NCBI RefSeq assembly: GCF_014201145.1
Contig: NZ_JACHDP010000001.1
Coordinates: 3,534,001-3,598,000 of the forward strand
DNA: 64,000 nucleotides
Source of the DNA: Micromonospora parathelypteridis
GTDB taxonomy: Bacteria; Actinomycetota; Actinomycetes; Mycobacteriales; Micromonosporaceae
Direction of reading: 5' to 3'
This document shows, in pieces, positions 10,786 through 56,345 of this stretch; positions within the stretch are counted from its first letter, which is position 1, and each line of letters starts with the position of its first letter. A program made the translations under genes and the position numbers. The notes under the pieces were generated by a model. That model did not search any database. It worked only from the letters and a program-made list of their open reading frames with translations, and was not told where the DNA came from.

Positions 10786-12063
10786 ATGACCGCGGTGGAA
10801 CACGATGCCGACGTCATTGTCGTAGGCGCCGGTCCCGGTGGGTCAGCGACTGCGTACCACCTGGCCCGGCACGGCGTACGGGTGTTGCTGCTGGAGAAGA
10901 CCGAGTTCCCACGGGAGAAGGTCTGCGGCGACGGGTTGACCCCGCGCGCGGTGCGCCAGCTCATCCGGATGGGTGTCGACACCTCACCCGAGGCCGGCTG
11001 GCTGCACAACCGAGGTCTGCGGGTCATCGGCGGCGGTGTACGCCTCGAACTGGACTGGCCCGAGTTGGCCAGTTTCCCCAACTACGGCCTGGTGCGAACG
11101 AGGCTGGACTTCGACGACCTGCTCGCCCAGCGGGCGGTGGCCGCCGGTGCCAAGCTGCGGACCAGCGTCAACGTGCTGGGCCCGGTGCTCGACGGTGACG
11201 GTCGGGTCACCGGCGTCGAGGCGGAGGTCGGCCCGGGCAAGGAGCCCGCCACCTTCCACGCACCGCTGGTCGTCGCGGCCGACGGGGTCTCCGGTCGGTT
11301 CCCGCTCGCGCTCGGGCTGGCCAAGCGGGAGGACCGGCCGATCGGCGTGGCCGTCCGCCGCTACTACCGCTCGCCGGCCAAGGCCGACGACAACTACCTG
11401 GAGTCCTGGCTGGAGCTGCGCAGCAAGGACAGCGGCGACAACCTGCTGCCCGGGTACGGCTGGATCTTCGGCCTCGGTGACGGGCGGGTCAACGTCGGCC
11501 TCGGCGTGCTCAACTCGTCCTCCGCGTTCGGCAAGACCAACTACCGCCGGCTGCTCACCGACTGGCTCGCCAACACTCCCGAGGACTGGGGGATGACCGA
11601 CGAGGCCAACGCCGACGGCCCGATCCTCGGTGCCGCACTGCCGATGGGCTTCAACCGGGTGCCCCACTACACCCGCGGTGTGTTGCTGGTCGGCGACTCG
11701 GGCGGCATGGTCAACCCGTTCAACGGTGAGGGCATCGCGTACGCGATGGAGTCTGGCGAGCTGGCCGCGGAGGTCATGGTCCAGGCCCTCGCCCGACCGG
11801 CCGGTCCGGAGCGGGAGCGGGCGCTGCTGGCGTACCCGAACGAGCTGAAGGCCCGACTCGGCGGCTACTACCGGTTGGGCGGCATCTTCGTGAAACTGAT
11901 CGGCCGTCCGGAGATCATGCGGCTCGCCACCAAACACGGTATGCCGCACCCGACGCTGATGCGCTTCGTACTCAAGCTGTTGGCCAACCTGACCGACCCG
12001 CGTGGCGGGGATGCGATGGACCGGGTCATCAATGCGATGACGAAAGCCGCGCCAGCCGTGTAG
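10786..12063 (+). CDS. Geranylgeranyl reductase family protein, probable menaquinone reductase (MenJ-like)
   Basis: A 425-residue FAD enzyme that probably saturates isoprene units of the menaquinone side chain, as MenJ does in mycobacteria. The N-terminal dinucleotide fold is clear (DVIVVGAGPGGSATAYHL), followed by EKTEFPREKVCGDGLTPRAV typical of geranylgeranyl reductases and the FAD motif LLVGDSGGMVNPFNGEGI. ATG 10786 is preceded by GGAGGAGG at good spacing; the upstream ATG-less extension from 10750 was rejected. A Rex-like operator precedes it and nuoA follows, which supports a respiratory quinone role, though reduction of other isoprenoids is possible. Confidence 0.8.
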   Translation: MTAVEHDADVIVVGAGPGGSATAYHLARHGVRVLLLEKTEFPREKVCGDGLTPRAVRQLIRMGVDTSPEAGWLHNRGLRVIGGGVRLELDWPELASFPNYGLVRTRLDFDDLLAQRAVAAGAKLRTSVNVLGPVLDGDGRVTGVEAEVGPGKEPATFHAPLVVAADGVSGRFPLALGLAKREDRPIGVAVRRYYRSPAKADDNYLESWLELRSKDSGDNLLPGYGWIFGLGDGRVNVGLGVLNSSSAFGKTNYRRLLTDWLANTPEDWGMTDEANADGPILGAALPMGFNRVPHYTRGVLLVGDSGGMVNPFNGEGIAYAMESGELAAEVMVQALARPAGPERERALLAYPNELKARLGGYYRLGGIFVKLIGRPEIMRLATKHGMPHPTLMRFVLKLLANLTDPRGGDAMDRVINAMTKAAPAV

Positions 12064-12105
12064 CGCGAGGAGTGAGCTTGCGAGCCCCGCAGTCGCGAAC
12101 GAAAG
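12062..12105 (+). repeat. Junction repeat, copy A (before nuoA)
   Basis: AGCGCGAGGAGTGAGC, TTGCGAGCCCCGCAGTCG and CGAACGAAAG run in succession, starting inside the stop codon of the preceding gene. Near-identical copies occur at 15355-15402 and 26908-26955, and a variant at 20227-20284. Here the element is followed by about 150 nt of leader before nuoA. Confidence 0.85.
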
Positions 12106-12253
12106 CGGGAGCCGTATAAGTAGGACGGCATCGGGGCTGGTCACAGCCTCGCGCCGACAAAGATCGACCCCCGCCGACTGCCACTGCGAGGGACGTGAAT
12201 AGTGTGATTTTCGTCAAGCACCGAGGGCAGGGAAGGACGAGCAGGAGAAAACG

Positions 12254-12619
12254 ATGTCGCTCTCGCCTTACGCACCGATCATCGGGCTGTTCGCCCTCGC
12301 CGCGGCGTTCTCGCTGTTTTCCGTTGGCGCCGCCCGCTTCGCCGGTCCCCGTCGCTACAACAAGGCCAAACTCGAGGCTTACGAGTGCGGCATCGAGCCC
12401 AGCCCGCAGCCGGTCGGCGGCGGCCGGTTCCCGATCAAGTTCTACCTGACGGCGATGCTCTTCATCGTCTTCGACATCGAGATCATCTTCCTCTACCCCT
12501 GGGCGGTCTCGTTCGACGCTCTGCCGATCTTCGGCTTCGTGGAGATGGTCCTGTTCATCGTCGCGGTCTTCGTTGCGTACGCCTACGTGTGGCGGCGCGG
12601 CGGCCTGGACTGGGACTGA
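12254..12619 (+). CDS. nuoA: NADH-quinone oxidoreductase subunit A
   Basis: A 121-residue membrane subunit of complex I with three transmembrane helices (about residues 5-25, 63-83, 90-110) and the loop motif YECGIEP that lies near the quinone cavity. It is the first gene of a complete nuoA-N operon. ATG 12254 follows AGGAGAAA. The 190-nt leader contains junction repeat copy A but no confident promoter. Confidence 0.96.
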
Positions 12620-12633
12620 GGAAGGAACGTCAG

Positions 12634-13311
12634 ATGGGCATCGAGGAGAAGCTTCCCGCCGGCGTCCTGCTCACCTCGGTGGAGAAGCTGGTCAACTGGT
12701 CCCGGAAGTCGTCCGTGTGGGGCGCTACCTTCGGCCTGGCCTGCTGCGCCATCGAGATGATGGCCGCCGGTGGTCCGCACTACGACATGGGCCGCTGGGG
12801 CATGGAGGTCTTCCGGGCGTCGCCCCGGCAGGCCGACCTGATGATCGTGGCCGGCCGGGTCAGTCAGAAGATGGCCCCGGTGCTGCGCCAGATCTACGAC
12901 CAGATGGCCGAGCCCCGCTGGGTGCTCTCGATGGGCGTCTGCGCCAGCAGCGGCGGCATGTTCAACAACTACGCGATCGTGCAGGGCGTCGACCACGTGG
13001 TGCCGGTCGACATGTACCTGCCCGGCTGCCCGCCCCGGCCGGAGATGCTCATCGACGCGATCCTCAAGCTCCGCGAGAAGATCATGTATGAGCCGCTGGG
13101 CCCGAACGGCCGCAAGATGCTGGCTGCCCGCCAGGAGCGCGGCGACGTTCCGGTCGTGCCGTACGGCTCCATGCCCTCCTCGTACCGCAGTGACAAGGCG
13201 CGGCGTGCCGAGTGGACCCGGGCGGTCCGCGAGGGCCGCGAGGAGCAGTTGCGGATCGAGAACTGGATGAACGCGCAGAACCACCTCCACCCGCAGGTAG
13301 GCCCCAAATGA
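12634..13311 (+). CDS. nuoB: NADH-quinone oxidoreductase subunit B
   Basis: A 225-residue peripheral-arm subunit that holds cluster N2, the last Fe-S centre before the quinone. The ligands are visible: the tandem Cys pair in [11 protein letters not shown], the Cys in [11 protein letters not shown] and the Cys in [13 protein letters not shown] 12634 is preceded by GGAAGG. The C-terminus extends about 40 residues past the core, as is common in actinobacteria. It overlaps nuoC by 4 bp. Confidence 0.96.
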
Positions 13312-14036
13312 GCGACAAGCCCAACGACGGCGGCGTACCGGTGCCGGTGGTGCCGGCCGGCGCCTCCAGCGGTGCCCCCGCCGAGTTGCCGCCGGCCAGC
13401 CCGGCCGGGCGCGGCATGTTCGGCAACCACGGCACCGGCGACGTGTCCGGCTACGGCGGCCTGGTCCGCCAGCGCCAGCCCATCGAGGAGGCCCCCCGGC
13501 CGTACGGGGGCTACTTCGACGAGGTCCGCGACGCGTTGGAGGAGGCGTACCCGGCCTTCGCCGACGCGATCGAGAAGGTCGTGGTCGACCGGGGTGAGCT
13601 GACCCTGCACGTACGGCCGGAGCGGATCGCCGAGGTCTGCCAGGTGATGCGGGACGACCTGGCGCTGCGGTTCGAGCTGTGCTCCTCGGTGTCCGGTGCG
13701 GACTACCTGGGCGCCGACGAGCGCCGACTGCACGTGGTCTACCTGCTCACGTCGATGACGTACCGGCGGCGGGTCCGACTGGAGGCCGCGGTCTCCGTCG
13801 AGTCCCCGCACCTGCCCAGCGTGACCGCGGTCTACCCGACGGCGGACTGGCAGGAGCGGGAGGCGTACGACATGTTCGGCATCGTCTTCGACGGCCACCC
13901 CAACCTGACCCGGATCCTCATGCCGGACGACTGGGAGGGCCACCCGCAGCGCAAGGACTACCCGCTCGGCGGCGTCCCCGTCGAGTACAAGGGCGCGGAG
14001 ATCCAGCCGCCGGACAAGCGGAGGTCGTACCAGTGA
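13308..14036 (+). CDS. nuoC: NADH-quinone oxidoreductase subunit C
   Basis: A 242-residue subunit of the peripheral arm. The first 70 residues are a Pro/Gly-rich leader typical of actinobacterial NuoC, followed by the 30-kDa domain with [22 protein letters not shown] and [18 protein letters not shown] 13308 overlaps the nuoB stop and its own stop overlaps nuoD. C and D are separate genes here, not fused as in E. coli. Confidence 0.95.
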
Positions 14037-15358
14037 CGACGTCGAACTACGCCAGCGAGCGCGAGACCGACGAGGGGCGGGTCTTCACCGTCACCGGCGG
14101 GGACTGGGACACGATCGTCGCGGGCACCGACCCGATCAACGACGAGCGGATCGTGGTCAACATGGGTCCGCAGCACCCGTCCACGCACGGGGTGCTGCGG
14201 CTGATCCTGGAGCTGGAGGGCGAGACGGTCCGCGAGGCCCGCTCCGTCATCGGCTACCTGCACACCGGCATCGAGAAGAACCTCGAGTACCGCAACTGGG
14301 TCCAGGGCTCGACGTTCGTGACCCGGATGGACTACCTCGCCCCGATCTTCAACGAGACGGCGTACGCGCTGGCGGTCGAGAAGCTGCTCGGCATCACGGA
14401 CGACGTGACCGAGCGGGCCACCACCATCCGCGTGCTGATGATGGAACTCAACCGGATCTCGTCGCACCTGGTCTGGCTGGCCACCACCGGCATGGAGCTG
14501 GGCGCGATCTCGATCATGCTGTACGGCTTCCGCGAGCGGGAGTACATCCTCGACATCTTCGAGACCATCACCGGTCTGCGGATGAACCACGCGTACGTCC
14601 GGCCGGGCGGTGTGGCTCAGGACGTGCCGGACGAGGCGATCGTCAAGATCCGCGAGTTCCTCAAGATGATGCCGAAGAAGCTCAAGGAGTACGAGGACCT
14701 CCTCTCCGGTCAGCCGATCTGGACCGAGCGTACGAAGAACGTCGCGGTGCTGGACGTGACCGGCTGTGTGGCACTCGGCATCACCGGACCGGTGCTGCGC
14801 TCCGCCGGCCTCGCGTGGGACCTGCGCAAGACCATGCCGTACTGCGGCTACGAGACGTACGAGTTCGACGTGCCGACCCACCCCGACGGTGACGTGTGGG
14901 GCCGCTACCAGGTCCGGCTCGCCGAGATCCGGGAGTCGATGAAGCTGGTCGAGCAGGCACTGGACCGGCTCCGTCCGGGCCCGGTGATGGTCGCCGACCG
15001 CAAGATCGCATGGCCGGCGCAGTTGGCCATCGGTGTCGACGGCATGGGCAACTCGCTGGAGCACGTCGCGAAGATCATGGGTCAGTCGATGGAGTCGCTG
15101 ATCCACCACTTCAAGCTGGTGACCGAGGGCTTCCGGGTCCCGCCCGGCCAGGTGTACGTCGCCATCGAGGCGCCCCGCGGCGAGTTGGGCGTACACGCGG
15201 TCTCCGACGGTGGCACCCGGCCGTACCGGGTGCACTACCGGGAGCCGAGCTTCGTCAATCTCCAGGCCCTCCCGGCGATGGCCGAGGGCGGTCTGATCGC
15301 CGACGTGATCGCCGGCGGTGCCTCGTTGGACCCGGTCATGGGCGGGTGTGACAGGTGA
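14033..15358 (+). CDS. nuoD: NADH-quinone oxidoreductase subunit D
   Basis: A 441-residue 49-kDa-type subunit forming part of the quinone-binding site with NuoB. The [14 protein letters not shown] motif at about residue 42 holds the quinone-site His, and the hydrogenase-derived body is full length. GTG 14033 overlaps nuoC. The stop at 15356-15358 is also the start of a junction repeat that separates it from nuoE. Confidence 0.96.
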
Positions 15359-15402
15359 GTGCGAGGAGTGAGCTTGCGAGCCCCGCAGTCGCGAACGGGA
15401 AG
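15355..15402 (+). repeat. Junction repeat, copy B (nuoD-nuoE)
   Basis: The element begins as GTGAGTGCGAGGAGTGAGC over the nuoD stop and continues with the same TTGCGAGCCCCGCAGTCG and GCGAACGGGAAGG blocks as copy A. It could be read from GTG 15355 in frame into nuoE as [16 protein letters not shown], an apparent N-terminal extension that I treat as repeat-derived. Confidence 0.85.
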
Positions 15403-15411
15403 GCGACGCCG

Positions 15412-16410
15412 ATGAGTGTTTTCACTGACGAGACCCGGGAGCGGGCGCGCGAGATCATCGCCCGTTACCCGGCGGACCGGTCCCGCTCGGCGCTGCTGCC
15501 GCTGCTGCACCTGGTGCAGGCCGAAGAGGGGTACGTCTCCCCGGCCGGGGTCACGTTCTGCGCCGAGGTGCTGGGGCTGAACAAGGCCCAGGTCGGAGCG
15601 GTGGCCACCTTCTACACGATGTACAAGCGGAAGCCGACCGGTGACTTCCTGGTCAGCGTCTGCACCAACACCATGTGCAATGTGCTCGGTGGCCAGGAAA
15701 TCTACGACACCCTCTCCGAGCACCTGGGCGTCGGGCACGACGAGACGACCGCCGACGGCACGATCACGCTGGAGCACGCCGAGTGCCTGGCCGCGTGTGA
15801 CTACGGCCCGGTCATGACCGTCAACTACGACTTCTTCGACGGCGTGGACCCGTCCACCGCGGTCGGTGTGGTCGACGAGTTGCGGGCGGGTGGGCGGCCG
15901 ATGCCGACCCGCGGTGCCCGGCTCTGCACCCTCAAGGAAATGGCGGTGCAACTCGCCGGTTTCGCCGACGATCGCGACGGCGCGGTCGCCGACGGTGGCC
16001 CGGGCGAGCCCACCCTGCGCGGGCTGCGGCTCGCGCAGCAGCACGGTGTCTCGGTGCCGGGCTTCGACCCGAACACCCCGATCCGCAGCAAGGCCGAGGC
16101 GGACCAGGCGGCGGCGAAGGCGAAGGCCGCCGAGGCCGCCGCGAAGCCCGCCGTCGAGCCCGCCACGCCGGCCAGCCCGGTGAAGGGTGGCGACGGCGCT
16201 TCCGCCGCGGTTCCGGCGGAGACCTCGCCGCCGGTCCCGCGCGACGCGCAGAAGGCGGAGGCGGCCGGTGTGGCGGCCAACGAACCCGCCAGCGACGGCA
16301 AGCCCGCCGGTGATGCCACTGGCCCGCAGGAGCGCAACCTCAACGAAGCGTCGGCGAGCGCCGGTGGCGCGAATCCCGCCGCCGCGAGCGAAACGGGGGC
16401 CCAGAAGTGA
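15412..16410 (+). CDS. nuoE: NADH-quinone oxidoreductase subunit E with long Ala/Pro-rich tail
   Basis: A 332-residue protein whose first 200 residues are the thioredoxin-like 24-kDa subunit holding [2Fe-2S] cluster N1a, with ligands in CTNTMCNVLGG and CLAACDYGP. The last 105 or so residues are low-complexity Ala/Pro/Glu/Lys sequence, much longer than in most NuoE proteins and probably disordered. I chose ATG 15412 (MSVFTDETRERA), where homology begins, rather than GTG 15355 inside the repeat. It overlaps nuoF by 4 bp. Confidence 0.93.
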   Translation: MSVFTDETRERAREIIARYPADRSRSALLPLLHLVQAEEGYVSPAGVTFCAEVLGLNKAQVGAVATFYTMYKRKPTGDFLVSVCTNTMCNVLGGQEIYDTLSEHLGVGHDETTADGTITLEHAECLAACDYGPVMTVNYDFFDGVDPSTAVGVVDELRAGGRPMPTRGARLCTLKEMAVQLAGFADDRDGAVADGGPGEPTLRGLRLAQQHGVSVPGFDPNTPIRSKAEADQAAAKAKAAEAAAKPAVEPATPASPVKGGDGASAAVPAETSPPVPRDAQKAEAAGVAANEPASDGKPAGDATGPQERNLNEASASAGGANPAAASETGAQK

Positions 16411-17723
16411 CCACTCCCCGCCCGGAGACGCTGGCCAAGCTGACGCCGGTGCTGACCAAGCGCTGGCTGTCACCGGACGCCTGGCGCATCGGCACGTACG
16501 AGCAGTTGGACGGCTATGCCGCGCTGCGCAAGGCGCTCAAGGCCCACCCGGACGACCTGATCCAGCTGATCAAGGACTCGGGGCTGCGTGGCCGAGGCGG
16601 CGCCGGCTTCCCCACCGGCCTCAAGTGGGGCTTCATCCCGCAGGGTGATGGCAAGCCGCACTACCTGGTGGTCAACGCCGACGAGGGCGAGCCGGGCACC
16701 TGCAAGGACCTGCCGCTGATGACCCACGACCCGCATGCGCTGGTCGAGGGCGTGATCATCGCCTCGTACGCGATCCGGGCCAACCGCGCCTACATCTACA
16801 TCCGCGGCGAGGCGGTGCACGCCGCGCGCCGGCTGCGCAACGCCGTCCAGGAGGCGTACGACAAGGGTTACCTCGGTCGGAACATCCTGCGCAGCGGCTA
16901 CGACCTGGAGCTGGTGGTGCACTCCGGCGCCGGGGCGTACATCTGCGGCGAGGAGACGGCGCTGCTGGACTCGCTGGAGGGTTTCCGGGGTCAGCCCCGG
17001 TTGCGCCCGCCGTTCCCGGCGACCCACGGCCTGTACGCGAGCCCGACGGTGGTGAACAACGTCGGCACCATCGCCAGCGTGCCGCCGATCGTGCTCGGTG
17101 GGGCGGACTGGTGGAAGTCCATGGGCACCGAGAAGTCCTCCGGGCCGATGATCTACTCGCTGTCCGGCCGGATCGCCAACCCGGGCCAGTTCGAGTGCTC
17201 GATGGGCGTCACGCTGCGCGAGCTGCTGGAGCTGGCCGGGGGGATGCAGCCCGGGCACAACCTGCGGTTCTGGACCCCGGGAGGATCGTCCACTCCGCTG
17301 CTTGCCGCCGAGCACCTGGACGTACCACTGGACTTCGAGGGTGTGGCGGCGGCCGGCTCGATCCTGGGCACCACGGCCACCCAGATCTTCTCCGACCAGG
17401 ACTGCCCGGTGTACGCGACCTACCGGTGGCTGGAGTTCTACCACCACGAGTCGTGCGGCAAGTGCACCCCGTGCCGCGAGGGCAACTACTGGATGGTTCG
17501 GGTCTACCGGCGGATCCTCGCCGGTCAGGGCACCCACGAGGACCTGGACACCCTGCTGGACACCTGCGACAACATCCTCGGCCGTTCGTTCTGTGGCCTG
17601 GGTGACGGCGCGACCAGCTCGGTGACCTCGTCACTCAAGTATTTCAAGCAGGACTACCTCGACTACATCGAGGGACGGACCGCACCGAAGCTGTCAGAGA
17701 AGACCCTGGTAGGGGCGCACTGA
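16407..17723 (+). CDS. nuoF: NADH-quinone oxidoreductase subunit F (NADH/FMN)
   Basis: A 438-residue 51-kDa-type subunit that binds NADH, FMN and a [4Fe-4S] cluster and is the electron entry point. [15 protein letters not shown] and the Glu-rich [13 protein letters not shown] form the nucleotide sites; [14 protein letters not shown] continues the FMN fold; [10 protein letters not shown] plus a later Cys in GRSFCGLGD bind N3. GTG 16407 overlaps nuoE, and TGATG joins it to nuoG. Confidence 0.96.
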
Positions 17724-20230
17724 TGACTGATGTAGCCAAGCAGACCGAGACCGTCACGCTCACCATCGACGGCGTCGAGGTCACCGCCCCCAAGGGGACG
17801 CTGCTGATCCGGGTCGCCGAGCAGATGGGCACCGAGATCCCCCGGTTCTGCGACCACCCATTGCTGGCCCCGGCCGGCGCGTGCCGGCAGTGCCTGGTCG
17901 AGGTGGAGGGGCAGCGCAAGCCGGTCGCCTCCTGCACCCAGACCGTCGCCGACGGCATGGTCGTTCGCACGCAGGTCACCTCCCCGGTCGCCAAGAAGGC
18001 GCAGGAGGGGGTGATGGAGCTGCTGCTGCTCAACCACCCGCTCGACTGCCCGATGTGTGACAAGGGCGGCGAGTGCCCGCTGCAGAACCAGGCGATGTCC
18101 ACCGGCCGCACCGACTCGCGCTTCCACGAGCACAAGCGGGAGTACGAGAAGCCGATGGCGATCAGCAGCCAGGTGCTGCTGGACCGCGAGCGCTGCGTGC
18201 TCTGCCAGCGGTGCACCCGGTTCTCCGAGGAGATCGCCGGCGACAAGTTCATCGACCTGATGGGCCGGTCGTCCGCCGAGGAGATCAACATCTACCGGGA
18301 CGACGCGTACGGCGAAGAGGGCGACGCCGGGGATGTCCCGTTCAACTCCTACTTCTCCGGCAACACGGTGCAGATCTGCCCGGTGGGCGCTCTGACCGGC
18401 GCCCAGTACCGTTTCCGGGCCCGCCCGTTCGACCTGGTCTCCAGCCCGAGCGTCTGCGAGCACTGCTCGGCCGGCTGCGGGCAGCGCACCGACTGGCGGC
18501 GCGGCAAGGTGCTGCGGCGGCTGGCCGGCGACGAGCCCGCGGTGAACGAGGAGTGGAACTGCGACAAGGGCCGGTGGGGCTTCCAGTACACCCGGGCCAC
18601 CGACCGGCTGACCACCCCGCTGGTCCGCGACGAGCACACCGGTGAGCTGCGCGAGGCCTCCTGGAGCGAGGCGCTCACCGTGGCTGCCGAGGGGCTGCAC
18701 GCGGCACGGGAGAGCGGGCAGGGCACGGCGGTGCTCACCGGTGGTCGGCTGACCGTCGAGGACGCGTACGCGTACGCGAAGTTCGCCCGGGTCGCGTTGA
18801 ACACCAACGACATCGACTTCCGGGCCCGGCCGGTCTCCCGCGAGGAGGCCGACTTCCTGGCCAGCTCGGTCGCCGGGGTCACCGACGTCACCTACACCGA
18901 CGTGGAGAACGCGCCGGCGGTCGTGCTTGTCGGCCTGGAGCCGGAGGAGGAGTGCCCGATCCTCTTCCTGCGGCTGCGCAAGGCGTACCTGAAGAAGACC
19001 CTGACGGTGTACGCGCTGGCGCCGTTCGCCACCCGCGGCCTGGAGAAGCTCGGTGCCAAGCTGGCCCGGGTCGTGCCGGGCGAGGAGGCCAGCGTGCTCG
19101 CCGAGCACGCCACGGTCGCCGAGGCGCTGAGCGCACCGGGCGCGATCCTGATCGTCGGCGAGCGGCTGGCCAGTGTGCCGGGTGGCCTCTCCGCCGCGGC
19201 GGACGTGGCCCGGCGTACCGGCGCGAAGCTTGCCTGGGTGCCACGGCGCGCGGGTGACCGCGGCGCGGTCGACGCGGGCTGCCTGCCCAACCTGCTCCCC
19301 GGTGGACGGCTCGTCACCGAGCCGGCCGCCCGGGCCGAGCTGGGTGAGGCGTGGGACATCCCGGCCGGGGTGATCCCGAGCCAGGCTGGTCGGGACACCG
19401 ACGGCATCCTCGTCGCGGCGGCCAACGGTCAGCTCGGCGCGTTGGTCGTCGGCGGTGTCGACCCGGCGGACCTGGCCGACCCGCGACTGGCCGAGTCTGC
19501 CCTGGACGCGGTGCCGTTCCTGGTCAGCCTGGAGCTGCGCAGCAGCGCGGTGACCCGGCGGGCGAACGTGGTGCTGCCGATCGCCCCGGTGGTCGAGAAG
19601 GCCGGCAGCTTCCTGGACTGGGAGGGCCGGCTGCGCCCGTTCGAGCCGGTGCTGAACACCGCGGCGATGACCGACGGTCGGGTGCTCGACGCGCTGGCCG
19701 CGCTGCTCGATGTGCGGCTCGGCACCGCGGATGTGCCGAGCGTGCGTCGCGAGCTGGGCACGCTGCCGGCGACGCGCACGACTCGGCCGGCCGCGCCGTC
19801 GGTGGCGCCGGGCCGGGTGCCGCACCCGGGCGACGGGGAGGCCGTGCTGGCCACCTGGCACCAGCTGGTTGACCTCGGCACCCTGACCGACGGCGACGAG
19901 AACCTCGCCGGCACCGCCCGCCCGCCGGTGGTCCGGCTGGGCAAGGGCACCGCCGAGGCGCTCGGTGTCGTCGACGGTGACGCGGTCACGGTCGGCACCG
20001 ACCGGGGGGCACTGACCCTGCCGGCCGAGCTCACCGAAATGCCGGACGGCGTGGTCTGGCTGCCGACCAACTCACCCGGCTCGACCGTGCGACGCAGCCT
20101 CGGGGCGACGTCCGGCGCGGTCGTCCGGATCTCGGTCCCCGCAACGGGTACGGCCATCCCGGCCGGGCGCGTGGCGGCCGACGAGACCGGCCTCCCGGGT
20201 CCGCTCCTCAACTCCGGGGGTAACCAGTGA
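17723..20230 (+). CDS. nuoG: NADH-quinone oxidoreductase subunit G
   Basis: An 835-residue 75-kDa-type subunit with the chain of Fe-S clusters that carries electrons from NuoF. Visible are the [2Fe-2S] Cys set ([15 protein letters not shown] and a later Cys), the His/Cys set [14 protein letters not shown], two more cluster motifs (CVLCQRC; an isolated Cys in QICPVG) and [11 protein letters not shown], which fits the extra N7 cluster of some bacteria. The rest is a molybdopterin-oxidoreductase-like domain without cofactor. ATG 17723 overlaps nuoF. A junction repeat begins at its stop. Confidence 0.95.
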
Positions 20231-20284
20231 GCGCGCGGAGTGAACGAGCGCAGCGAGTGAGCCTCGCAGTCGCGAACGAAAGGC
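20227..20284 (+). repeat. Junction repeat, variant copy C (nuoG-nuoH)
   Basis: GTGAGCGCGCGGAGTGAACG begins at the nuoG stop, followed by AGCGCAGCGAGTGAGCCT and CGCAGTCGCGAACGAAAGG. The two ends match the other copies, but the middle differs (GAACGAGCGCAGCGAG in place of the usual GAGCTTGCGAG), so it is a subtype of the same family. Confidence 0.8.
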
Positions 20285-20291
20285 GGGCACA

Positions 20292-21644
20292 GTGACTCCG
20301 TCAATCCTGGCCCAGGATCCGACGCTTGCCGACTTCGGCCGGGATCCGTGGTGGCTGGTTCTCGGCAAGATCGTCTTCGCGTTCGCCTTCGGTCTGCTGG
20401 CCACCCTGCTCGGTGTCTGGTTCGAGCGGCGCGTGGTCGGTTACATGCAGGTGCGGCCCGGTCCCAACCAGGTCGGTCCTTTCGGTCTGCTGCAGACCCT
20501 CGCCGACGGCCTGAAGATGGCCTTCAAGGAGGACATCCTGCCGAAGGCGGCCGACAAGGTCGTCTACTTCTTCGCGCCGACCATCTCGGTGATCTGCGCG
20601 GTCACCGCTCTGTCGGTGGTGCCGTTCGGCCCGATGGTGAGCATCTTCGGCCACCACACGCCGTTGCAGGTCACCGACGTGCCGGTGGCGGTGCTGCTGC
20701 TGCTGGCCTGCTCCTCGATGGGCGTCTACGGCATCGTGCTGGGCGGTTGGGCCTCCGGCTCGACGTACCCGCTCCTCGGCGGTCTGCGGTCGAGTGCCCA
20801 GATGATCTCCTACGAGGTCGCCATGGGGCTGAGCATCGTGGCGGTCTTCATGACGGCGGGCACGATGAGCACCAGCGGGATCGTCGCCGCTCAGGGCGAC
20901 GCCACGCGGCTGACCATCAACGGCTGGGAGATCCCGGCACCGGGCTGGTACGCGATCCTGCTGCTGCCCAGCTTCGTCATCTTCTTCATCGCCACCGTGG
21001 GTGAGACCAACCGGGCGCCGTTCGACCTGCCCGAGGCCGAGTCCGAGCTGGTCGCGGGCTTCATGACCGAATACAGCTCGCTGAAGTTCGCGCTCTTCAT
21101 GCTCAGCGAGTACGTCGCGATGGTGACGATGTCCGCGGTCACCACCACGCTGTTCCTCGGTGGTTGGCGAGCGCCGTGGCCGATCACCATCTGGGAGGGC
21201 GCCAACTCCGGTTGGTGGCCGATGCTCTGGTTCTTCGGCAAGGTGATCGCGCTGGTCTTCGTCTTCGTGTGGCTGCGCGGCACGCTGCCCCGGCTGCGCT
21301 ACGACCAGTTCATGCGCCTCGGCTGGAAGGTGCTGCTGCCGATCAACCTGGTCTGGATCCTGGTCCTGTCGGGCCTCCGGTCCATCGAGGACTGGGACAC
21401 CCGCGGCAAGGTGATCGCCGTCGGCATCCCGGCCGGCCTCCTGCTGATCGCCACGCTGTTCTGGCCCAGCCGCCGGCCGCAGCCGAAGCCGACGGCACAG
21501 GAACAGGTCGACAACCGGCCGTACGGGAGCTTCCCGCTGCCGCCGATGGATCTTCAGGTACCACCGAGCCCGCGTATCACGCGCGTGGTCGCCGAGCGGG
21601 AGCCGGCCAACATCGTTGCCGGCTCGGACTCCAGGGAGGTGTGA
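20292..21644 (+). CDS. nuoH: NADH-quinone oxidoreductase subunit H
   Basis: A 450-residue membrane subunit that joins the two arms and lines the quinone tunnel. About eight transmembrane helices are visible, with the loop motifs [25 protein letters not shown] ([11 protein letters not shown] here) and [20 protein letters not shown] 20292 follows AAAGGCGGG supplied by the end of the junction repeat. A Pro-rich cytoplasmic tail of about 55 residues follows the last helix. Confidence 0.95.
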
Positions 21645-21645
21645 C

Positions 21646-22287
21646 GTGGGCGCGATCACCGGAACGTTCAAGGGATTCGGTGTCACCTTCTCGCACATGT
21701 TCAGGAAGGTCGTCACGACCGACTACCCGTTCAAGCCGCCGGTGTCGGCGCCGCGCTATCACGGGCGGCACATCCTCAACCGGCACCCGGACGGCCTGGA
21801 GAAGTGCATCGGCTGCGAGCTGTGCGCGTGGGCCTGCCCGGCGGACGCGATCTACGTCGAGGGTGGCGACAACACCGACGAGGAGCGCTTCTCGCCGGGT
21901 GAGCGGTACGCCAGCATCTACCAGATCAACTATGCCCGGTGCATCTTCTGCGGGCTGTGCATCGAGGCCTGCCCGACCCGGTCGCTCACCATGAGCAACG
22001 AGTACGAGTTGGCCCGGGACAACCGGCAGGACCTGATCTTCACCAAGGAGCAGTTGCTCGCGCCGCTGCTCGAGGGCATGGAGCAGCCGCCGCACCCGAT
22101 GCGGCTGGGTGACAGCGAGAAGGACTACTACGTCGGCGCGCTGGACAACCCGGGGACCTCCGCCGGTGCGGAGAAGTCCCCGATGAGCCCCGGCGGCTAC
22201 CAGGTCGAGGAGCACCCCGGGGTGACGTTCCCGGGCGCCGAGCAGGCCGCCCAGCGCGTGGCGGCCGGCAAGGGAGAGGGAGCATGA
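21646..22287 (+). CDS. nuoI: NADH-quinone oxidoreductase subunit I
   Basis: A 213-residue ferredoxin-like subunit with two [4Fe-4S] clusters (N6a, N6b), ligands [12 protein letters not shown] and [15 protein letters not shown] 21646 is one base after the nuoH stop, with AGGGAGG upstream. The 60 residues after the second cluster are typical of actinobacterial NuoI. Confidence 0.95.
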
Positions 22288-23054
22288 CCACGTCTACGGT
22301 CCTCGCCGCGGCGGGCTCGGTGTCCGGCGGCGAGGCGGTCACCTTCTGGATCCTGGCCCCGCTCGCGCTGGTCGGCGGGATCGGGATGGTGGCCGCGCGC
22401 AACGCCGTGCACTCGGCGCTCTGGCTGGTGCTGACCATGCTCTGCCTGGGCGTGTTCTACGTGCTCCAGGCCGGTCCGTTCATCGGCATGGTGCAGATCA
22501 TCGTCTACACCGGCGCGATCATGATGCTGTTCCTCTTCGTGCTGATGCTTGTCGGCCGGGACTCCACGGACTCGCTGATCGAGACGCTGCGCGGCCAGCG
22601 GGTCGCCGCGATCGTGCTCGGCCTGGGCTTCGCCGGCCTCGTCGGCACTGGCGTCTTCCAGGCGCTGGGGAAGACCACCGCGGTCGGCCTGGAGCAGGTC
22701 AACGCGGAGGGGAACGTGCAGGGCATCGCCCGGCTGCTGTTCACCAAGTACGTCTTCGCGTTCGAGCTGACCTCGGCGCTGCTGATCACCGCGGCGGTTG
22801 GCGCCATGGTGCTGGCTCACGTCGAGCGGCGTAAGCAGGACAAGATCGACCAGCCGTCGACCATGCGGGCTCGCTTCGCCCCGGGCAACTACCCCGGCCC
22901 GAAGCCGGGCCCGGGCGTCTTCGCGACCTCCTCCTCGGTGGCCACCCCGGCCCGGTTGCCCGACGGCCGCCTGACCGACCGCAGCACCCCGGCGATCCTT
23001 CCGCAGCGCGAGCTGACCGCCGAGGAGACCTCGCTGAAGGGGACGAACAACTGA
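22284..23054 (+). CDS. nuoJ: NADH-quinone oxidoreductase subunit J
   Basis: A 256-residue membrane subunit with five predicted helices. The third helix region [19 protein letters not shown] is the family hallmark and contains the pi-bulge helix linked to coupling. The C-terminal 70 residues are a charged, Pro-rich tail. ATG 22284 overlaps nuoI, and its stop overlaps nuoK. Confidence 0.94.
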
Positions 23055-23371
23055 TGGATTCCTTCTTCTCGGTCGAGCCGAACTACTACCTGGTCCTCGC
23101 CGCGGTGCTGTTCACCATCGGCGCGGCCGGCGTGCTGATCCGGCGCAACGCGATCGTGCTGTTCATGTGCGTGGAGCTGATGCTCAACGCGGCCAACCTG
23201 ACGCTGGTCACCTTCAGCCGGATCAACGGTGACCTCAACGGCCAGATCATGGCGTTCTTCGTGATGGTGGTGGCGGCGGCCGAGGTCGTGGTCGGGCTCG
23301 CGATCATCATGTCCATCTTCCGGACGCGACGCTCGGCGAGTGTCGACGACGCCAACCTGCTCAAGTACTAA
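23054..23371 (+). CDS. nuoK: NADH-quinone oxidoreductase subunit K
   Basis: A 105-residue subunit with three helices, homologous to MrpC. The conserved membrane glutamates used for proton transfer are present in [13 protein letters not shown] and in [19 protein letters not shown] couples it to nuoJ. Confidence 0.95.
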
Positions 23372-23382
23372 GGGGCCCACCG

Positions 23383-25311
23383 GTGGAAGAGACTGTGGAA
23401 TACGCCCAGGCCACGGGGCTGCTCGGGAGCGTCTGGCTGCTGGTGGCGATCCCGCTGCTCAGCGCGGCCGTCCTGCTGCTGCTCGGCCGGCGCGCCGACC
23501 GCTGGGGGCACTGGTTGGGCGTCGCCGCCATCGGTGCCGCGTTCGTGCTCGGCCTCTCGTTCTTCTTCCAGTTGCGTGGGCTGGAGAACAAGTCGGTCGA
23601 GCTGAGCCTCTGGGACTTCATCGCGGTCGGTGACCTGCGCGTCGACTTCGGCCTGCTGTTCGACCCACTGGCCGCGGTCTTCGTGCTGCTGATCACCGGG
23701 GTGGGCTTCCTGATCCACCTGTACGCGGTGGAGTACATGGCGCACGATGCGGGCCGCCGCCGGTTCTTCGCGTACTTCAACCTGTTCGTCGCGGCGATGC
23801 TGCTGCTGGTGCTGGGCAACAACTACGTGATGCTCTACTTCGGCTGGGAGGGCGTCGGTCTGGCGTCGTACCTGCTGATCTCCTTCTGGTACGGGCGGCC
23901 GAGCGCGGCCACCGCCGGCAAGAAGGCGTTCCTGATGAACCGGGTCGGTGACACCGGCCTGGCCATCGGCATCTTCATCATGTTCGCCACTCTGGGCACC
24001 ACCCAGTACGACGAGGTGTTCAACGGCGTTGGCGCGATGACGAGCACCACCGTGTTGGTGCTCGGCCTGTTGCTGCTGCTGGGCGCGGCCGGGAAGTCCG
24101 GTCAGTTCCCGCTGCAGGCGTGGTTGCCGGACGCGATGGAGGGCCCGACCCCGGTGTCCGCGCTCATCCACGCGGCCACCATGGTCACGGCGGGTGTGTA
24201 CCTGATCGCCCGGTCCAACCCGATCTTCTCCGCCAACTCGACGCTCCAACTCGTGGTGCTCAGCGTCGGCGCACTCACCCTGCTGATGGGCTGCATCATC
24301 GGCGCCGCGAAGGACGACATCAAGCGGGTGCTCGCCTGGTCGACGGTGAGCCAGATCGGTTACATGTTCCTCGGCGTCGGCCTGGGCGGTGGCGCGTACG
24401 CGCTGGCGATCATCCACCTGCTGGCACACGGGTTCTTCAAGGCCAACATGTTCCTGGGCGCCGGCTCGGTCATGCACGGCATGAAGGACCAGGTGGACAT
24501 CCGGCGGTTCGGTGGCCTCTGGAAGCACATGAAGATCACCTGGCTGACCTTCATGATGGGCTGGCTGGCGATCATCGGCCTCCCGCCGCTCTCCGGCTAC
24601 TTCTCGAAGGAGCCGATCATCGCGAGCGCCTTCGAGCGGGAGGACTGGACCGCCTGGCTCTACGGCGGGGCCGCGCTGCTCGGCGCCGGGCTGACCGCGT
24701 TCTACATGACCAGGCTGTTCGTGCTCACGTTCCACGGTCCGAAGCGGTGGACCGAGGACATCGAGCACCCGCACGAGTCACCGATGCTGATGACCATCCC
24801 GCTGATCCTCCTGGCCGCCGGGTCGGTGGCGGCCGGCGGACTGATGGTCCTGAACGGCGGGGTCGCCTCCTGGTTGAGCCCGGTGCTCGGCGAGGAAGCC
24901 GCCGGTGAGGCGCACGGGGTGCTCTCCCACGAGGTGATCACGTTCCTGTCGCTGCTGGTCACGGTGCTCGGCGCGGGGCTGGCCTGGTTCCTGTTCCGGG
25001 CTGGCACGGCCACCGCGCCGCAGCCGGCCGGGGTGCTGGTAACCGCCGCCCGGCGCAACCTCTACACCGACGCGGTCAACGAGGCGGTCTTCGAGAAGCC
25101 GGGCATCTTCCTCACCCGGGCGCTGGTCTACCTCGACAACCGGGGCATCGACGGGCTCGTCAACGGGCTAGCCGCCGCGGTCGGCGGTGGCTCTGGTCGG
25201 CTCCGGCGGTTGCAGACCGGCTTCGTCCGCTCGTACGCCACCTCGATCCTGGCCGGCGCGCTGCTGGTGATGGCGGCGTTCCTGGCGGTGCAGGCGGGGT
25301 GGTTGGCGTGA
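23383..25311 (+). CDS. nuoL: NADH-quinone oxidoreductase subunit L
   Basis: A 642-residue antiporter-like proton-pumping subunit with about sixteen helices, ending in the long lateral helix and a final anchor. LYFGWEGVGLASYLLISFWY and LPDAMEGPTPVSALIHAATMVTAGVYL (shortened here to their core) are the ND5 signatures with the pumping Glu and Lys. GTG 23383 follows 11 nt after nuoK. Confidence 0.95.
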   Translation: MEETVEYAQATGLLGSVWLLVAIPLLSAAVLLLLGRRADRWGHWLGVAAIGAAFVLGLSFFFQLRGLENKSVELSLWDFIAVGDLRVDFGLLFDPLAAVFVLLITGVGFLIHLYAVEYMAHDAGRRRFFAYFNLFVAAMLLLVLGNNYVMLYFGWEGVGLASYLLISFWYGRPSAATAGKKAFLMNRVGDTGLAIGIFIMFATLGTTQYDEVFNGVGAMTSTTVLVLGLLLLLGAAGKSGQFPLQAWLPDAMEGPTPVSALIHAATMVTAGVYLIARSNPIFSANSTLQLVVLSVGALTLLMGCIIGAAKDDIKRVLAWSTVSQIGYMFLGVGLGGGAYALAIIHLLAHGFFKANMFLGAGSVMHGMKDQVDIRRFGGLWKHMKITWLTFMMGWLAIIGLPPLSGYFSKEPIIASAFEREDWTAWLYGGAALLGAGLTAFYMTRLFVLTFHGPKRWTEDIEHPHESPMLMTIPLILLAAGSVAAGGLMVLNGGVASWLSPVLGEEAAGEAHGVLSHEVITFLSLLVTVLGAGLAWFLFRAGTATAPQPAGVLVTAARRNLYTDAVNEAVFEKPGIFLTRALVYLDNRGIDGLVNGLAAAVGGGSGRLRRLQTGFVRSYATSILAGALLVMAAFLAVQAGWLA

Positions 25312-25375
25312 TCGACCTCTTTCCGGCCGCCCGCGCCGGCGGACCACGCAGTGACGACGGAGGTAAGGCCGCATA

Positions 25376-26911
25376 ATGTCCAACTTCCCGTTCCTCTCGG
25401 TGCTCACCGTGGCGCCACTGGTGGGCGCCCTGGTGGTGGCCTTCCTGCCGCGAAGCCGGCCGGACCTGGCCAAGCAGGTGGCGTTCGCCTGGTCGCTGCT
25501 GGTGCTGGTGCTCTCGGTGGTGATGTGGGTCAGCTTCAACGCCGGCGGTGACCGGTTCCAGTTCCGCGAGTCGTACTCGTGGATCCCGAACTGGGGCGTC
25601 AGCTTCACCTTCGCCGCCGACGGCATCGCGCTGGTGATGCTGATGCTGATCGCGGTGCTGGTGCCGCTGGTGATCCTGGCGTCCTGGCACGACGCGGAGT
25701 CGTCGAAGCGTTCGGTGCCCGTCTACTTCGCGCTGCTGCTGGTCCTCGAGTGCACGATGATCGGCGTCTTCGCCGCCGCCGACGTCTTCCTGTTCTACGT
25801 GTTCTTCGAGGTCATGCTGGTCCCGATGTACTTCCTCATCGGCAGCTACGGCGGCCACCAGCGGCAGTACGCGGCAGTGAAGTTCTTCCTCTACTCCCTC
25901 GTCGGCGGCCTGTTCATGCTGGCCGCGGTGATCGGGCTGTGGGTGGTCGGCGGAAAGACCTTCGACTGGCAGGCGCTGTCGCAGGTCGACATCAGCACCG
26001 GCACCGAGCGTTGGCTGTTCCTCGGCTTCTTCCTCGCGTTCGCCATCAAGGCACCGTTCTTCCCGTTCCACACCTGGCTCCCCGATGCCGGTGGCGCGGC
26101 CCCGGCGGGTGCCGCGGCACTGCTCGTCGGTGTGCTCGACAAGGTGGGAACGTTCGGGATCCTGCGCTACTGCCTGCCGCTGTTCCCCGAGGCGTCGAAG
26201 TGGTTCGCACCGTGGGCGCTGGCGCTGGGCGTGATCGGCATCGTCTACGCCGCGCTGCTGGCGGTCGGTCAGAACGACCTCAAGCGGCTGGTGTCGTACA
26301 CCTCGATCGCGCACTTCGGTTTCATCGGGGTGGGCATCTTCGCGTTCACCACGCAGGCCGGCACCGGTGCGGTGCTCTACATGCTCAACCACGGCCTGGC
26401 GACCGGCCTGCTGTTCCTGGTGGTCGGCATGTTGATCTCCCGGCGGGGCTCGGCGCTGATCAGTGACTTCGGTGGCGCCGGCAAGTTGGTCCCGGTGCTC
26501 GCCGGGGTGCTCTTCTTCGCCGGTCTCGCCTCGCTCGCGCTGCCGGGGACCGCGCCGTTCATCTCCGAGTTCCTGGTGCTGATCGGCACCTTCACGGTGA
26601 ACAAGCCGGTGGCCGTCATCGCCACGCTCGGCATCATCCTGGCCGCCGCGTACGTGCTGTGGATGGTGCAGCGCACCACGCAGGGCACGCTCAACCCGGC
26701 GTTGACCGAGGTCGACGGCATGCGCCGGGACCTCAACCTGCGCGAGAAGATCGTGGTCGCCCCGTTGATCGCACTGATCGTGCTGCTCGGCTTCTTCCCC
26801 AAGCCGGTCACTGACGTGATCAACCCGGCCGTCCAGGCGACCATGGACGACATCGGCAGAACCGACCCGGCCCCGTCCGTTGGGGGCACCGTCCAGGAGG
26901 CAGGCCGGTGA
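25376..26911 (+). CDS. nuoM: NADH-quinone oxidoreductase subunit M
   Basis: A 511-residue antiporter-like pumping subunit with about fourteen helices. The conserved Glu in FYVFFEVMLVPMYFLIG and Lys in FAIKAPFFPFHTWLPDA are in place. ATG 25376 lies 64 nt after nuoL with GGAGGTAAGG upstream, the largest gap in the operon apart from the repeat-bearing ones. Its stop codon opens junction repeat copy D. Confidence 0.95.
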   Translation: MSNFPFLSVLTVAPLVGALVVAFLPRSRPDLAKQVAFAWSLLVLVLSVVMWVSFNAGGDRFQFRESYSWIPNWGVSFTFAADGIALVMLMLIAVLVPLVILASWHDAESSKRSVPVYFALLLVLECTMIGVFAAADVFLFYVFFEVMLVPMYFLIGSYGGHQRQYAAVKFFLYSLVGGLFMLAAVIGLWVVGGKTFDWQALSQVDISTGTERWLFLGFFLAFAIKAPFFPFHTWLPDAGGAAPAGAAALLVGVLDKVGTFGILRYCLPLFPEASKWFAPWALALGVIGIVYAALLAVGQNDLKRLVSYTSIAHFGFIGVGIFAFTTQAGTGAVLYMLNHGLATGLLFLVVGMLISRRGSALISDFGGAGKLVPVLAGVLFFAGLASLALPGTAPFISEFLVLIGTFTVNKPVAVIATLGIILAAAYVLWMVQRTTQGTLNPALTEVDGMRRDLNLREKIVVAPLIALIVLLGFFPKPVTDVINPAVQATMDDIGRTDPAPSVGGTVQEAGR

Positions 26912-26955
26912 GCGCGAGGAGTGAGCTTGCGAGCCCCGCAGCCGCGAACGAAAGG
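26908..26955 (+). repeat. Junction repeat, copy D (nuoM-nuoN)
   Basis: GTGAGCGCGAGGAGTGAGC overlaps the nuoM stop, followed by TTGCGAGCCCCGCAGCCG and CGAACGAAAGGC. It differs from copy A at one position in the core. The AAAGG at its end can act as the ribosome site for nuoN at 26964. Confidence 0.85.
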
Positions 26956-26963
26956 CTGGCCCC

Positions 26964-28517
26964 GTGACCGAGCTGAACCTGCCGTCGATCGACTACGCGG
27001 CGCTCTCTCCAATCCTGATCATGCTGGGCACCGCCTTGCTCGGTGTGCTGGTCGAGGCCTTCGTGCCTCGGCGCTGGCGGCACGTGGTGCAGTTGACGCT
27101 GGCTCTGCTGGCGGTGCTCGCGGCGCTGACCATGGTGGTCCTCAACGCCGACGAGCGGATGATCACCGCCGGCCAGGCCATCGCGGTGGACGGGCCGACG
27201 CTGTTCCTCCAGGGCGCGATCCTGGTGCTGGCCGCGATGGCGCTGCTGCTGATCGGTGACCGCTCGGTCGAGCGGGGCGGGGCGTTCGTCGCCCAGGCCG
27301 CGGTGACCGCCGAGTCGGCCGACGACCGGCGACAGGCCGAGGGGCGCAACGGCCTCACCGAGGTCTACCCGCTCATCACGTTCGCGATCGGCGGCATGCT
27401 GATCTTCGTGGCGGCGAACGACCTGCTGACCATGTTCATCGCGCTGGAGGTCTTCTCCCTGCCGCTCTACCTGCTCTGCGCGCTGGCCCGTCGCCGGCGC
27501 CTGCTGAGCCAGGAGGCGGCGATGAAGTACTTCCTGCTCGGCGCGTACGCCTCCGCGTTCTTCCTGTTCGGCGTGGCCCTGATCTACGGCTTCACCGCCG
27601 GCATTCCGGGCCGTACGGCCGGCGTCGACTTCGCCACCATCAACGCGGCGGTGAGCGAGTCTCCGGCCAGCCAGGTGCTGCTCTTCGCCGGCATGGCGCT
27701 GCTCGCCATCGGCCTGCTCTTCAAGGCCGCGGCGGCACCGTTCCACGTCTGGACCCCGGACGTCTACCAGGGTGCGCCGACGCCGGTCACCGGCTTCATG
27801 GCGGCCTGCACCAAGGTCGCCGCGTTCGGTGCGCTGCTGCGGGTCTTCCACGTCGCGTTCGCCGATGCAGCCTGGGACTTCACGCCGGTGCTCGGCGCGG
27901 TGGCGGTGCTGACCATGCTGGTCGGTGCGGTGCTGGCGGTCACCCAGACCGACATCAAGCGGCTGCTCGCGTACTCCTCGATCGCCAACGCCGGCTACCT
28001 GCTGGTCGGTGTGCTGGCACCGAGCCGTGACGGGCTCTCCGGCACGATGTTCTACCTGGTCGCGTACGGCTTCTCGGTGCTGGCCGCGTTCGCGGTGGTG
28101 ACCCTGGTGCGCGACGCCGACGGGGAGGCCACCCACCTGTCCCGCTGGGCCGGGCTGGGCCGACGGTCGCCGTTCTTCGCCGGGCTGTTCACCTTCATCC
28201 TGCTCGCGTTCGCCGGTATCCCGCTGACCAGCGGTTTCACCAGCAAGTTCGCCATCTTCGGGCCGGCGCTGGACGGTGGTCAGGCCTGGCTGGTGATCGC
28301 CGGTGTGCTGACCAGCATGGTGCTGGCGTTCCCGTACCTGCGGGTCGTGGTGATGATGTGGCTCTCCGAGCCGGGCGAGTCCACCCCGACCGTCACGGTG
28401 CCCGGTGGGCTCACCGCCGCCGCGCTGATGATCGGTGTGCTGGCCACTCTGGTGCTGGGCGTCGCCCCGGCACCGCTGCTCGATCTGGCCACCGGAGCTG
28501 CCGAATTCGTTCGTTGA
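26964..28517 (+). CDS. nuoN: NADH-quinone oxidoreductase subunit N
   Basis: A 517-residue antiporter-like pumping subunit, last gene of the operon. About fourteen helices; the functional Glu is in IALEVFSLPLYLLCA and the Lys in LLFKAAAAPFHVWTPDVYQG. GTG 26964 follows the AAAGGC at the end of the junction repeat. A strong hairpin 14 nt after the stop ends the operon, so all 14 subunits are present and intact. Confidence 0.95.
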   Translation: MTELNLPSIDYAALSPILIMLGTALLGVLVEAFVPRRWRHVVQLTLALLAVLAALTMVVLNADERMITAGQAIAVDGPTLFLQGAILVLAAMALLLIGDRSVERGGAFVAQAAVTAESADDRRQAEGRNGLTEVYPLITFAIGGMLIFVAANDLLTMFIALEVFSLPLYLLCALARRRRLLSQEAAMKYFLLGAYASAFFLFGVALIYGFTAGIPGRTAGVDFATINAAVSESPASQVLLFAGMALLAIGLLFKAAAAPFHVWTPDVYQGAPTPVTGFMAACTKVAAFGALLRVFHVAFADAAWDFTPVLGAVAVLTMLVGAVLAVTQTDIKRLLAYSSIANAGYLLVGVLAPSRDGLSGTMFYLVAYGFSVLAAFAVVTLVRDADGEATHLSRWAGLGRRSPFFAGLFTFILLAFAGIPLTSGFTSKFAIFGPALDGGQAWLVIAGVLTSMVLAFPYLRVVVMMWLSEPGESTPTVTVPGGLTAAALMIGVLATLVLGVAPAPLLDLATGAAEFVR

Positions 28518-56214: not shown

Positions 56215-56345
56215 CTTCACATCCTCGAAACAGACAGACTCTCAGCGGTTGCACCCCCCGTGACCGCTGAGTGGTTCGGCTCGACCCCCCCGGAGCCGAA
56301 CCTCCGACGACCCCCGTCTCCCCCCGACGGGGGTCGTCCCTTTCC
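56215..56345 (+). ncRNA. 6C RNA (three stem-loops with cytosine-rich loops)
   Basis: Three hairpins follow one another: CTCAGCGGT/ACCGCTGAG (56241-56271) with CCCCCC in its loop, GGTTCGGCTC/GAGCCGAACC (56273-56302) with seven C in its loop, and the terminator-like GACGACCCCCGTC/GACGGGGGTCGTC (56306-56338) with six C in its loop, followed by CCCTTTCC. Two hairpins with at least six unpaired C are the defining feature of the actinobacterial 6C RNA family. The place next to the HAD gene and ssd matches the mycobacterial homologue (B11). It probably regulates mRNAs by pairing its C-loops with G-rich ribosome sites. The exact 5' end is an estimate. Confidence 0.88.

Follow-up and report, generated by a model that had tools for sequence, protein, structure and literature searches.

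Repetitive extragenic palindromic (REP) sequences and bacterial interspersed mosaic elements (BIME) are palindromic stem-loops in non-coding DNA, and mycobacterial interspersed repetitive units (MIRU) lie in the same orientation as the genes that flank them. Brown and Wade describe MIRU as repeats, apparently mobile, whose insertion at a start codon leaves an internal open reading frame (ORF) coupled at -4, and in their view this coupling limits the effect on the gene that is hit (PMC12548453). Units of 77 and 53 bp lie in tandem between senX3 and regX3 (PMC4213456), and these two sources give the hosts differently, as many mycobacteria (PMC12548453) or as only M. leprae and the M. tuberculosis complex (PMC4213456). 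Enterobacterial RU sequences with ORFs, 103-168 bp long, are presented as similar to miniature inverted-repeat transposable elements (MITEs) (PMC2759123). Here we describe a short repeat at gene junctions of the nuo operon of Micromonospora parathelypteridis, within a window of 64,000 nt (assembly GCF_014201145.1, contig NZ_JACHDP010000001.1, positions 3,534,001 to 3,598,000; positions below are those of the window). We conclude, with a probability of about 0.8, that the repeat is non-autonomous and apparently mobile, that its insertion sites are RTGA stop/start overlaps (R, A or G) within operons and that it carries a micro-ORF which keeps the neighbouring genes coupled.

The Micromonospora element has much in common with MIRU. 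It is likewise a short unit between operon genes, is likewise found in the orientation of the flanking genes (131 of 131 matches in nuo loci; 99 of 104 sites in a broader survey) and likewise occurs in tandem with variable copy number (1-4 units), and the two MIRU lengths given in PMC4213456 are, like most of its own, of the form 3n+2. Its subtypes have spacers that offset the core length, its copies can be nested and its target is partly duplicated, traits that MIRU may or may not share. Whereas the MIRU host range is mycobacterial, it was matched only in the Micromonosporaceae. Judged by taxon and model matches, it looks like a separate sequence family; its apparent working is MIRU-like, but it should not be classed as MIRU, given its different taxon and a sequence that, on these matches, probably differs as well. 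With REP/BIME and the TnpA-REP transposases it has in common that it is short, dispersed and non-autonomous, but it lacks a stable stem-loop, keeps to one orientation and retains an open frame. MITEs and RU sequences, as far as the available part of PMC2759123 describes them, are also small mobile sequences with reading frames, and no exact stop/start insertion is stated for them there. As for the target-site duplication of MITEs and other elements derived from insertion sequences, the Micromonospora element gives a partial signal (3-4 nt plus RTGA, with 19 of 79 sites sharing at least three bases). Among the matches listed in our search of the Micromonospora and actinobacterial literature, whose coverage was partial and sparse for subscription journals, we found no published report of this repeat.

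Results

The nuo region of the window contains four copies (A-D) of the repeat:

12061..12106, + strand, copy A, beginning with the TAG that ends the gene before nuoA
15355..15411, + strand, copy B, between nuoD and nuoE, its frame in phase into nuoE (ATG at 15412)
20227..20295, + strand, copy C, long subtype, between nuoG and nuoH, micro-ORF of 22 codons plus stop
26908..26967, + strand, copy D, between nuoM and nuoN, micro-ORF of 19 codons plus stop
26908..26911, + strand, GTGA forming both the nuoM stop and the start of the copy D micro-ORF
26949..26955, + strand, CGAAAGG, end of the core, Shine-Dalgarno-like as read from the sequence, preceding the start of nuoN

The original prediction had placed four copies of a roughly 45-bp element at these gene junctions, and each was re-located at its position, with core matches far above shuffle expectation: a 31-nt core with up to three mismatches recovered three copies (A, B and D) against 0.00 expected in shuffles, and the 15-nt 3' core recovered 4 of 4 against 0.52. 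The places were thus right, and the extent had been drawn too short, as the unit runs on to the next start codon (B, 15355-15411; C, 20227-20291; D, 26908-26963). In copies B, C and D the GTGA at the 5' end includes the stop codon (TGA) of nuoD, nuoG and nuoM, respectively; copy A follows a TAG stop. A terminus able to serve as a ribosome site was also proposed, and a GAAAGG-like end can be read there. The further statement that all other nuo junctions overlap or are tightly spaced does not apply to nuoL|nuoM, with a spacer of 64 nt, or to nuoA, which is preceded by a gap of 190 nt. For these assignments nuoD, E, F, G, H, I, L, M and N were named via NCBIfam, and A, B, C, J and K by position only.

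In copies C and D the micro-ORF closes with a TGA that overlaps the GTG of nuoH (at 20292) and of nuoN (at 26964), in both cases by -4. Copies A and B depart from this usual architecture, B by being fused to nuoE and A by its place before nuoA. Given that the frame of copy B is in phase with nuoE, the nuoE start may lie at 15355. Copy A, whose upstream neighbour belongs to the geranylgeranyl-reductase family (NCBIfam), has no coupled start downstream and is perhaps a decayed or displaced copy; copies resembling it also occur in two loci of relatives (L055 and L057).

Across copies, the unit of approximately 56-68 nt has a GTGA at the upstream stop as its 5' end and carries a single open frame, which finishes either on a stop overlapping the next start or by reading through into the next gene. 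Its parts follow in the order GTGAGCGCGAGG, a variable middle, CGCAGTCGCGAAC-GAAAGG, a spacer and the next RTG; shorter forms of 35-38 nt were also found at gene junctions. Position and frame were surveyed in 111 loci from the M. parathelypteridis genome and regions of 14 relatives, 102 of which gave a site; with tandem units merged, this yielded 104 sites (31 in the own genome, 73 in relatives) and 136 units, with the coding strand and frame of the flanks called by codon-position G+C rather than from annotation. Downstream coding was on the same strand as the element at 99 sites and upstream coding at 98. The upstream frame stopped at the element's own TGA in 78 of the 104 sites, against a background in which 102 of 1,425 RTGA of the same loci fell within the upstream coding frame. 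From the micro-ORF to the downstream frame, the connection was a -4 or -1 overlap at 81 sites and an in-frame fusion at 14.

The length of the insert follows a frame rule. We took the distance from start to start, modulo 3, at 61 distinct sites with one unit each: it was 2 (overlap) in 54, 0 (fusion) in six and 1 (neither) in one. Subtypes have core lengths mostly of 40, 43, 45 or 49 nt. Spacers measured 14, 17 or 20 nt beside cores of 40, 43 and 49 nt (30 of 33 sites) and 12, 15 or 18 nt beside cores of 45 nt (24 of 27 sites); the single 46-nt core is a fusion. From these pairings it follows that spacers compensate for core length and restore the same frame in steps of three. Because the encoded peptide differs between subtypes, which are of different length, in its second half, it is the frame and not the peptide that is kept.

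To place the window copies in context, we compared 80 named nuo loci with the window (81 loci). After 17 of 160 junctions were dropped (14 at nuoL|nuoM of different sequence and three before nuoA), 143 occupied junctions of seven types (B|C, C|D, D|E, F|G, G|H, J|K and M|N) remained, spread over 61 of the 81 loci. All but one (L102 at G|H) offered a gapless reading path, and the 142 continuous paths ran by -4 or -1 overlaps alone in 130 cases, through a fusion in seven and with a -8 or -11 step in five. Distances modulo 3 divided as 123:12:8 over the 143 junctions and as 51:7:3 over distinct junction-and-length classes. Without the element, the same junctions mostly overlap by 4 or 1. In the 80 loci, 131 of 131 matches to a two-part pattern lay on the operon strand.

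Orthologous junctions are empty, single, tandem or nested: arrays hold one to four units at one junction, and a 57-nt unit can sit inside another copy with the frame kept. On a tree of four Nuo proteins from the 80 loci, the minimum numbers of presence changes at the seven junctions were 6, 14, 16, 14, 12, 14 and 17. The nested 57-nt units at nuoD|nuoE (L047, L053, L065, L073, L092 and L095) are mostly flanked by CAGYCGC-like direct repeats. Three further junctions bear on this distribution:

16407..16410, + strand, GTGA junction of nuoE and nuoF, occupied in 0 of 79 loci
22284..22287, + strand, ATGA junction of nuoI and nuoJ, occupied in 0 of 80 loci
25308..25377, + strand, micro-ORF of other sequence between nuoL and nuoM, of the same architecture, excluded from the copy count

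At the two unoccupied RTGA junctions the paired genes may depend on close coupling. No copies occur either at A|B, H|I and K|L, which mostly have no overlap. The nuoL|nuoM spacer in the window is itself a coupled micro-ORF (VIDLFPAARAGGPRSDDGGKAA). In 67 of 80 loci this spacer measures 61, 64, 79, 82 or 100 nt and its stop overlaps the nuoM start by 1, and 11 other loci have a direct overlap with no spacer. The 3' part of this micro-ORF is faintly like the repeat (CGCAGTGACGACGG), and from its sequence it could be a relic of one.

These patterns bear on the explanation that the element is a regulatory adapter, with micro-ORF and spacer tuning the expression ratio of the downstream subunits and retained for that purpose. 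Repeated state changes at the same junctions, the widespread nuoL|nuoM micro-ORF of other sequence and the lack of copies at E|F and I|J are what it would lead one to expect, but presence varies between close species and the second-half peptides differ with subtype length, so that the peptide is not conserved; we regard retention for this function as somewhat unlikely. A tuning role of the micro-ORFs, each adding a reinitiation step, is possible.

We next consider the trace left by insertion, for which the bases before the 5' start were compared with those before the 3' start at 90 sites, 79 of them after removal of orthologues (by the downstream 12 nt). At these 79 distinct sites, identity was in excess at -1 (43 against 22.4 expected, z 5.5), -3 (39 against 26.3) and -4 (32 against 22.7), and at least three flank bases were common to both ends in 19, with approximately five expected; from -5 to -10 there was no clear excess (highest z 1.4 at -7, 2.3 before orthologue removal). 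At nuoF|nuoG in L047 and L057, for example, CTGATGA stands at both ends. Such a partial duplication, of 3-4 nt together with RTGA, is in favour of insertion.

Alternatively, the element could have no target specificity and insert widely, with selection leaving only in-frame copies at RTGA. Coupling junctions are common, bridging them in frame should do the least harm, and the two RTGA junctions that are never occupied imply that selection probably acts. Nevertheless, non-coding DNA before genes should tolerate copies at any place, yet in L120, L158, L183 and L194 copies sit at the start codon although the upstream stop lies 13-28 nt earlier, and the excess flank identity adjoins RTGA. Selection on its own is therefore an unlikely account of the placement.

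The repeat is dispersed well beyond nuo. A covariance model built from 26 copies found it in at least 37 places of the 7.01-Mb M. parathelypteridis genome at E <= 0.01, of which 33 scored more than 50 bits; that search scored 150 of 11,933 first-look candidates, and weak copies may be missed. An exact two-part pattern matched 184 of 354 Micromonosporaceae genomes (156 of 160 in Micromonospora, with one genome per species, and 28 outside the genus), and its reversed control matched none. With stricter filters, the model matched 46 of 298 genomes of the order, all in Micromonosporaceae and none outside that family. A search of 50,697 phage records gave no match, and the exact pattern matched nothing in IMG/VR. 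One plasmid record carries a copy, Micromonospora terminaliae pLB1 (L245:1501-1566; NZ_CP045310.1), between a gene of the lysophospholipid acyltransferase family and a glycerol-3-phosphate dehydrogenase gene. Here the RefSeq annotation, which is independent of our calls, closes one coding sequence at the final base of the first GTGA in the element; the following one opens 59 bases after that GTG, at the GTGA closing a 63-nt frame.

Taken with the nuo comparison, these matches agree with the proposal of a dispersed, apparently mobile element at RTGA stop/start sites: copies exist elsewhere in the genome (the 37 model matches), their placement at stops is non-random (78 of 104 sites against 102 of 1,425 background RTGA), and in relatives the junctions range from empty to nested, with repeated state changes, so that the repeat is not fixed operon sequence. 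The suggestion that it uncouples translation is not supported: the anatomy points the other way, to a frame that bridges the genes and retains the overlap of stop and start.

Two further explanations fare poorly. Promoter activity of the element would follow from literature analogy only and leaves both the frame rule and the exact stop/start placement unexplained, and we consider it quite improbable. A REP-like palindrome or mRNA-processing hairpin, which the near-palindromic character noted originally had raised, is very improbable. In its favour are the palindromic GCTTGCGAGC, confined to one subtype, and the 10 pairs proposed by RNAalifold, three of which show two-sided change. It was rejected because copies fold no better than shuffles (82 single copies, mean z +0.27, 0 of 82 below -2; copy D -0.48, copy C +0.38), so that mRNA processing has no structure in its support; the element is also one-sided in orientation, as REPs are not.

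Discussion

On the reading we prefer, the element would insert at an RTGA stop/start overlap in an operon, oriented with translation, and would bring along a GTG start followed by an open frame, about 19-23 codons in length. As its length is mostly 3n+2, this frame would end on a TGA overlapping the next start, with a minority running into the gene. A ribosome leaving the upstream gene would restart in the micro-ORF, end at the next start and restart again, with GAAAGG helping; coupling would be preserved, insertion would be nearly neutral, and the element could spread. We favour such a selfish element, made tolerable by a coupled micro-ORF, because the MIRU account (PMC12548453) fits the features that can be tested. 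The sequences establish the position and orientation of the element, its frame rule, its presence/absence polymorphism and its tandem and nested forms. From these patterns we infer that the micro-ORF is probably translated, that the frame rule probably exists for the sake of coupling and that the element is probably moved by an enzyme supplied in trans.

Several observations weigh against this interpretation. Nine of the 104 surveyed sites fail (five by strand calls, three without a 5' start and one misframed; at least one of them, L211 at the nuoJ/nuoK junction, looks like a strand miscall), and the 14 fusions do not end on an overlap. The sites are not independent, since many units go back to a small number of founders whose length was right and orthologous nuo junctions share ancestry. 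Flank identity at -2 (48 against 43.8) lacked significance, and only about a quarter of sites show the duplication. It is absent from nuoD|nuoE, where occupied rows have a 5' GTGA and an ATG as the start at the 3' end, with ATGA at most of the empty sites. Either the duplication was lost there by decay or there is more than one insertion route. The nuo filter was loose, as 20 of the 143 junctions have no recognisable 5' half (mostly short forms) and six match the 3' core at three mismatches; these weak matches may be short forms, relics or chance. Finally, a control with random frame-breaking indels left a mean of 95-130 of 160 junctions still 'continuous', because fusions and an internal GTGA pass as well. 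On its own, continuity is thus weak evidence, and the modulo-3 counts carry the argument.

It is conceivable, and we put it forward tentatively, that the repeat represents a second, independently evolved MIRU-type class of selfish element that uses coupling as a safe harbour, with 3n+2 micro-ORFs, subtype spacers that keep the frame and possible homing to RTGA. If so, the element would insert coupling steps that set nuo subunit ratios, and MIRU-type elements would seem, as the comparison suggests, to be a recurring solution rather than a mycobacterial oddity. The insertions in 156 of 160 Micromonospora genomes form a natural set of gene pairs differing only by one, two or more coupled micro-ORFs, and thus a ready test of how far termination-reinitiation chains. 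There is also a warning for annotation, in that N-terminal extensions, such as the possible one of nuoE, may derive from the repeat.

Elsewhere in the window, an Rfam scan, which had no family at the element, returned one family only, a 6C RNA (RF01066) at 56270-56342 with 78.1 bits against a gathering score of 47.

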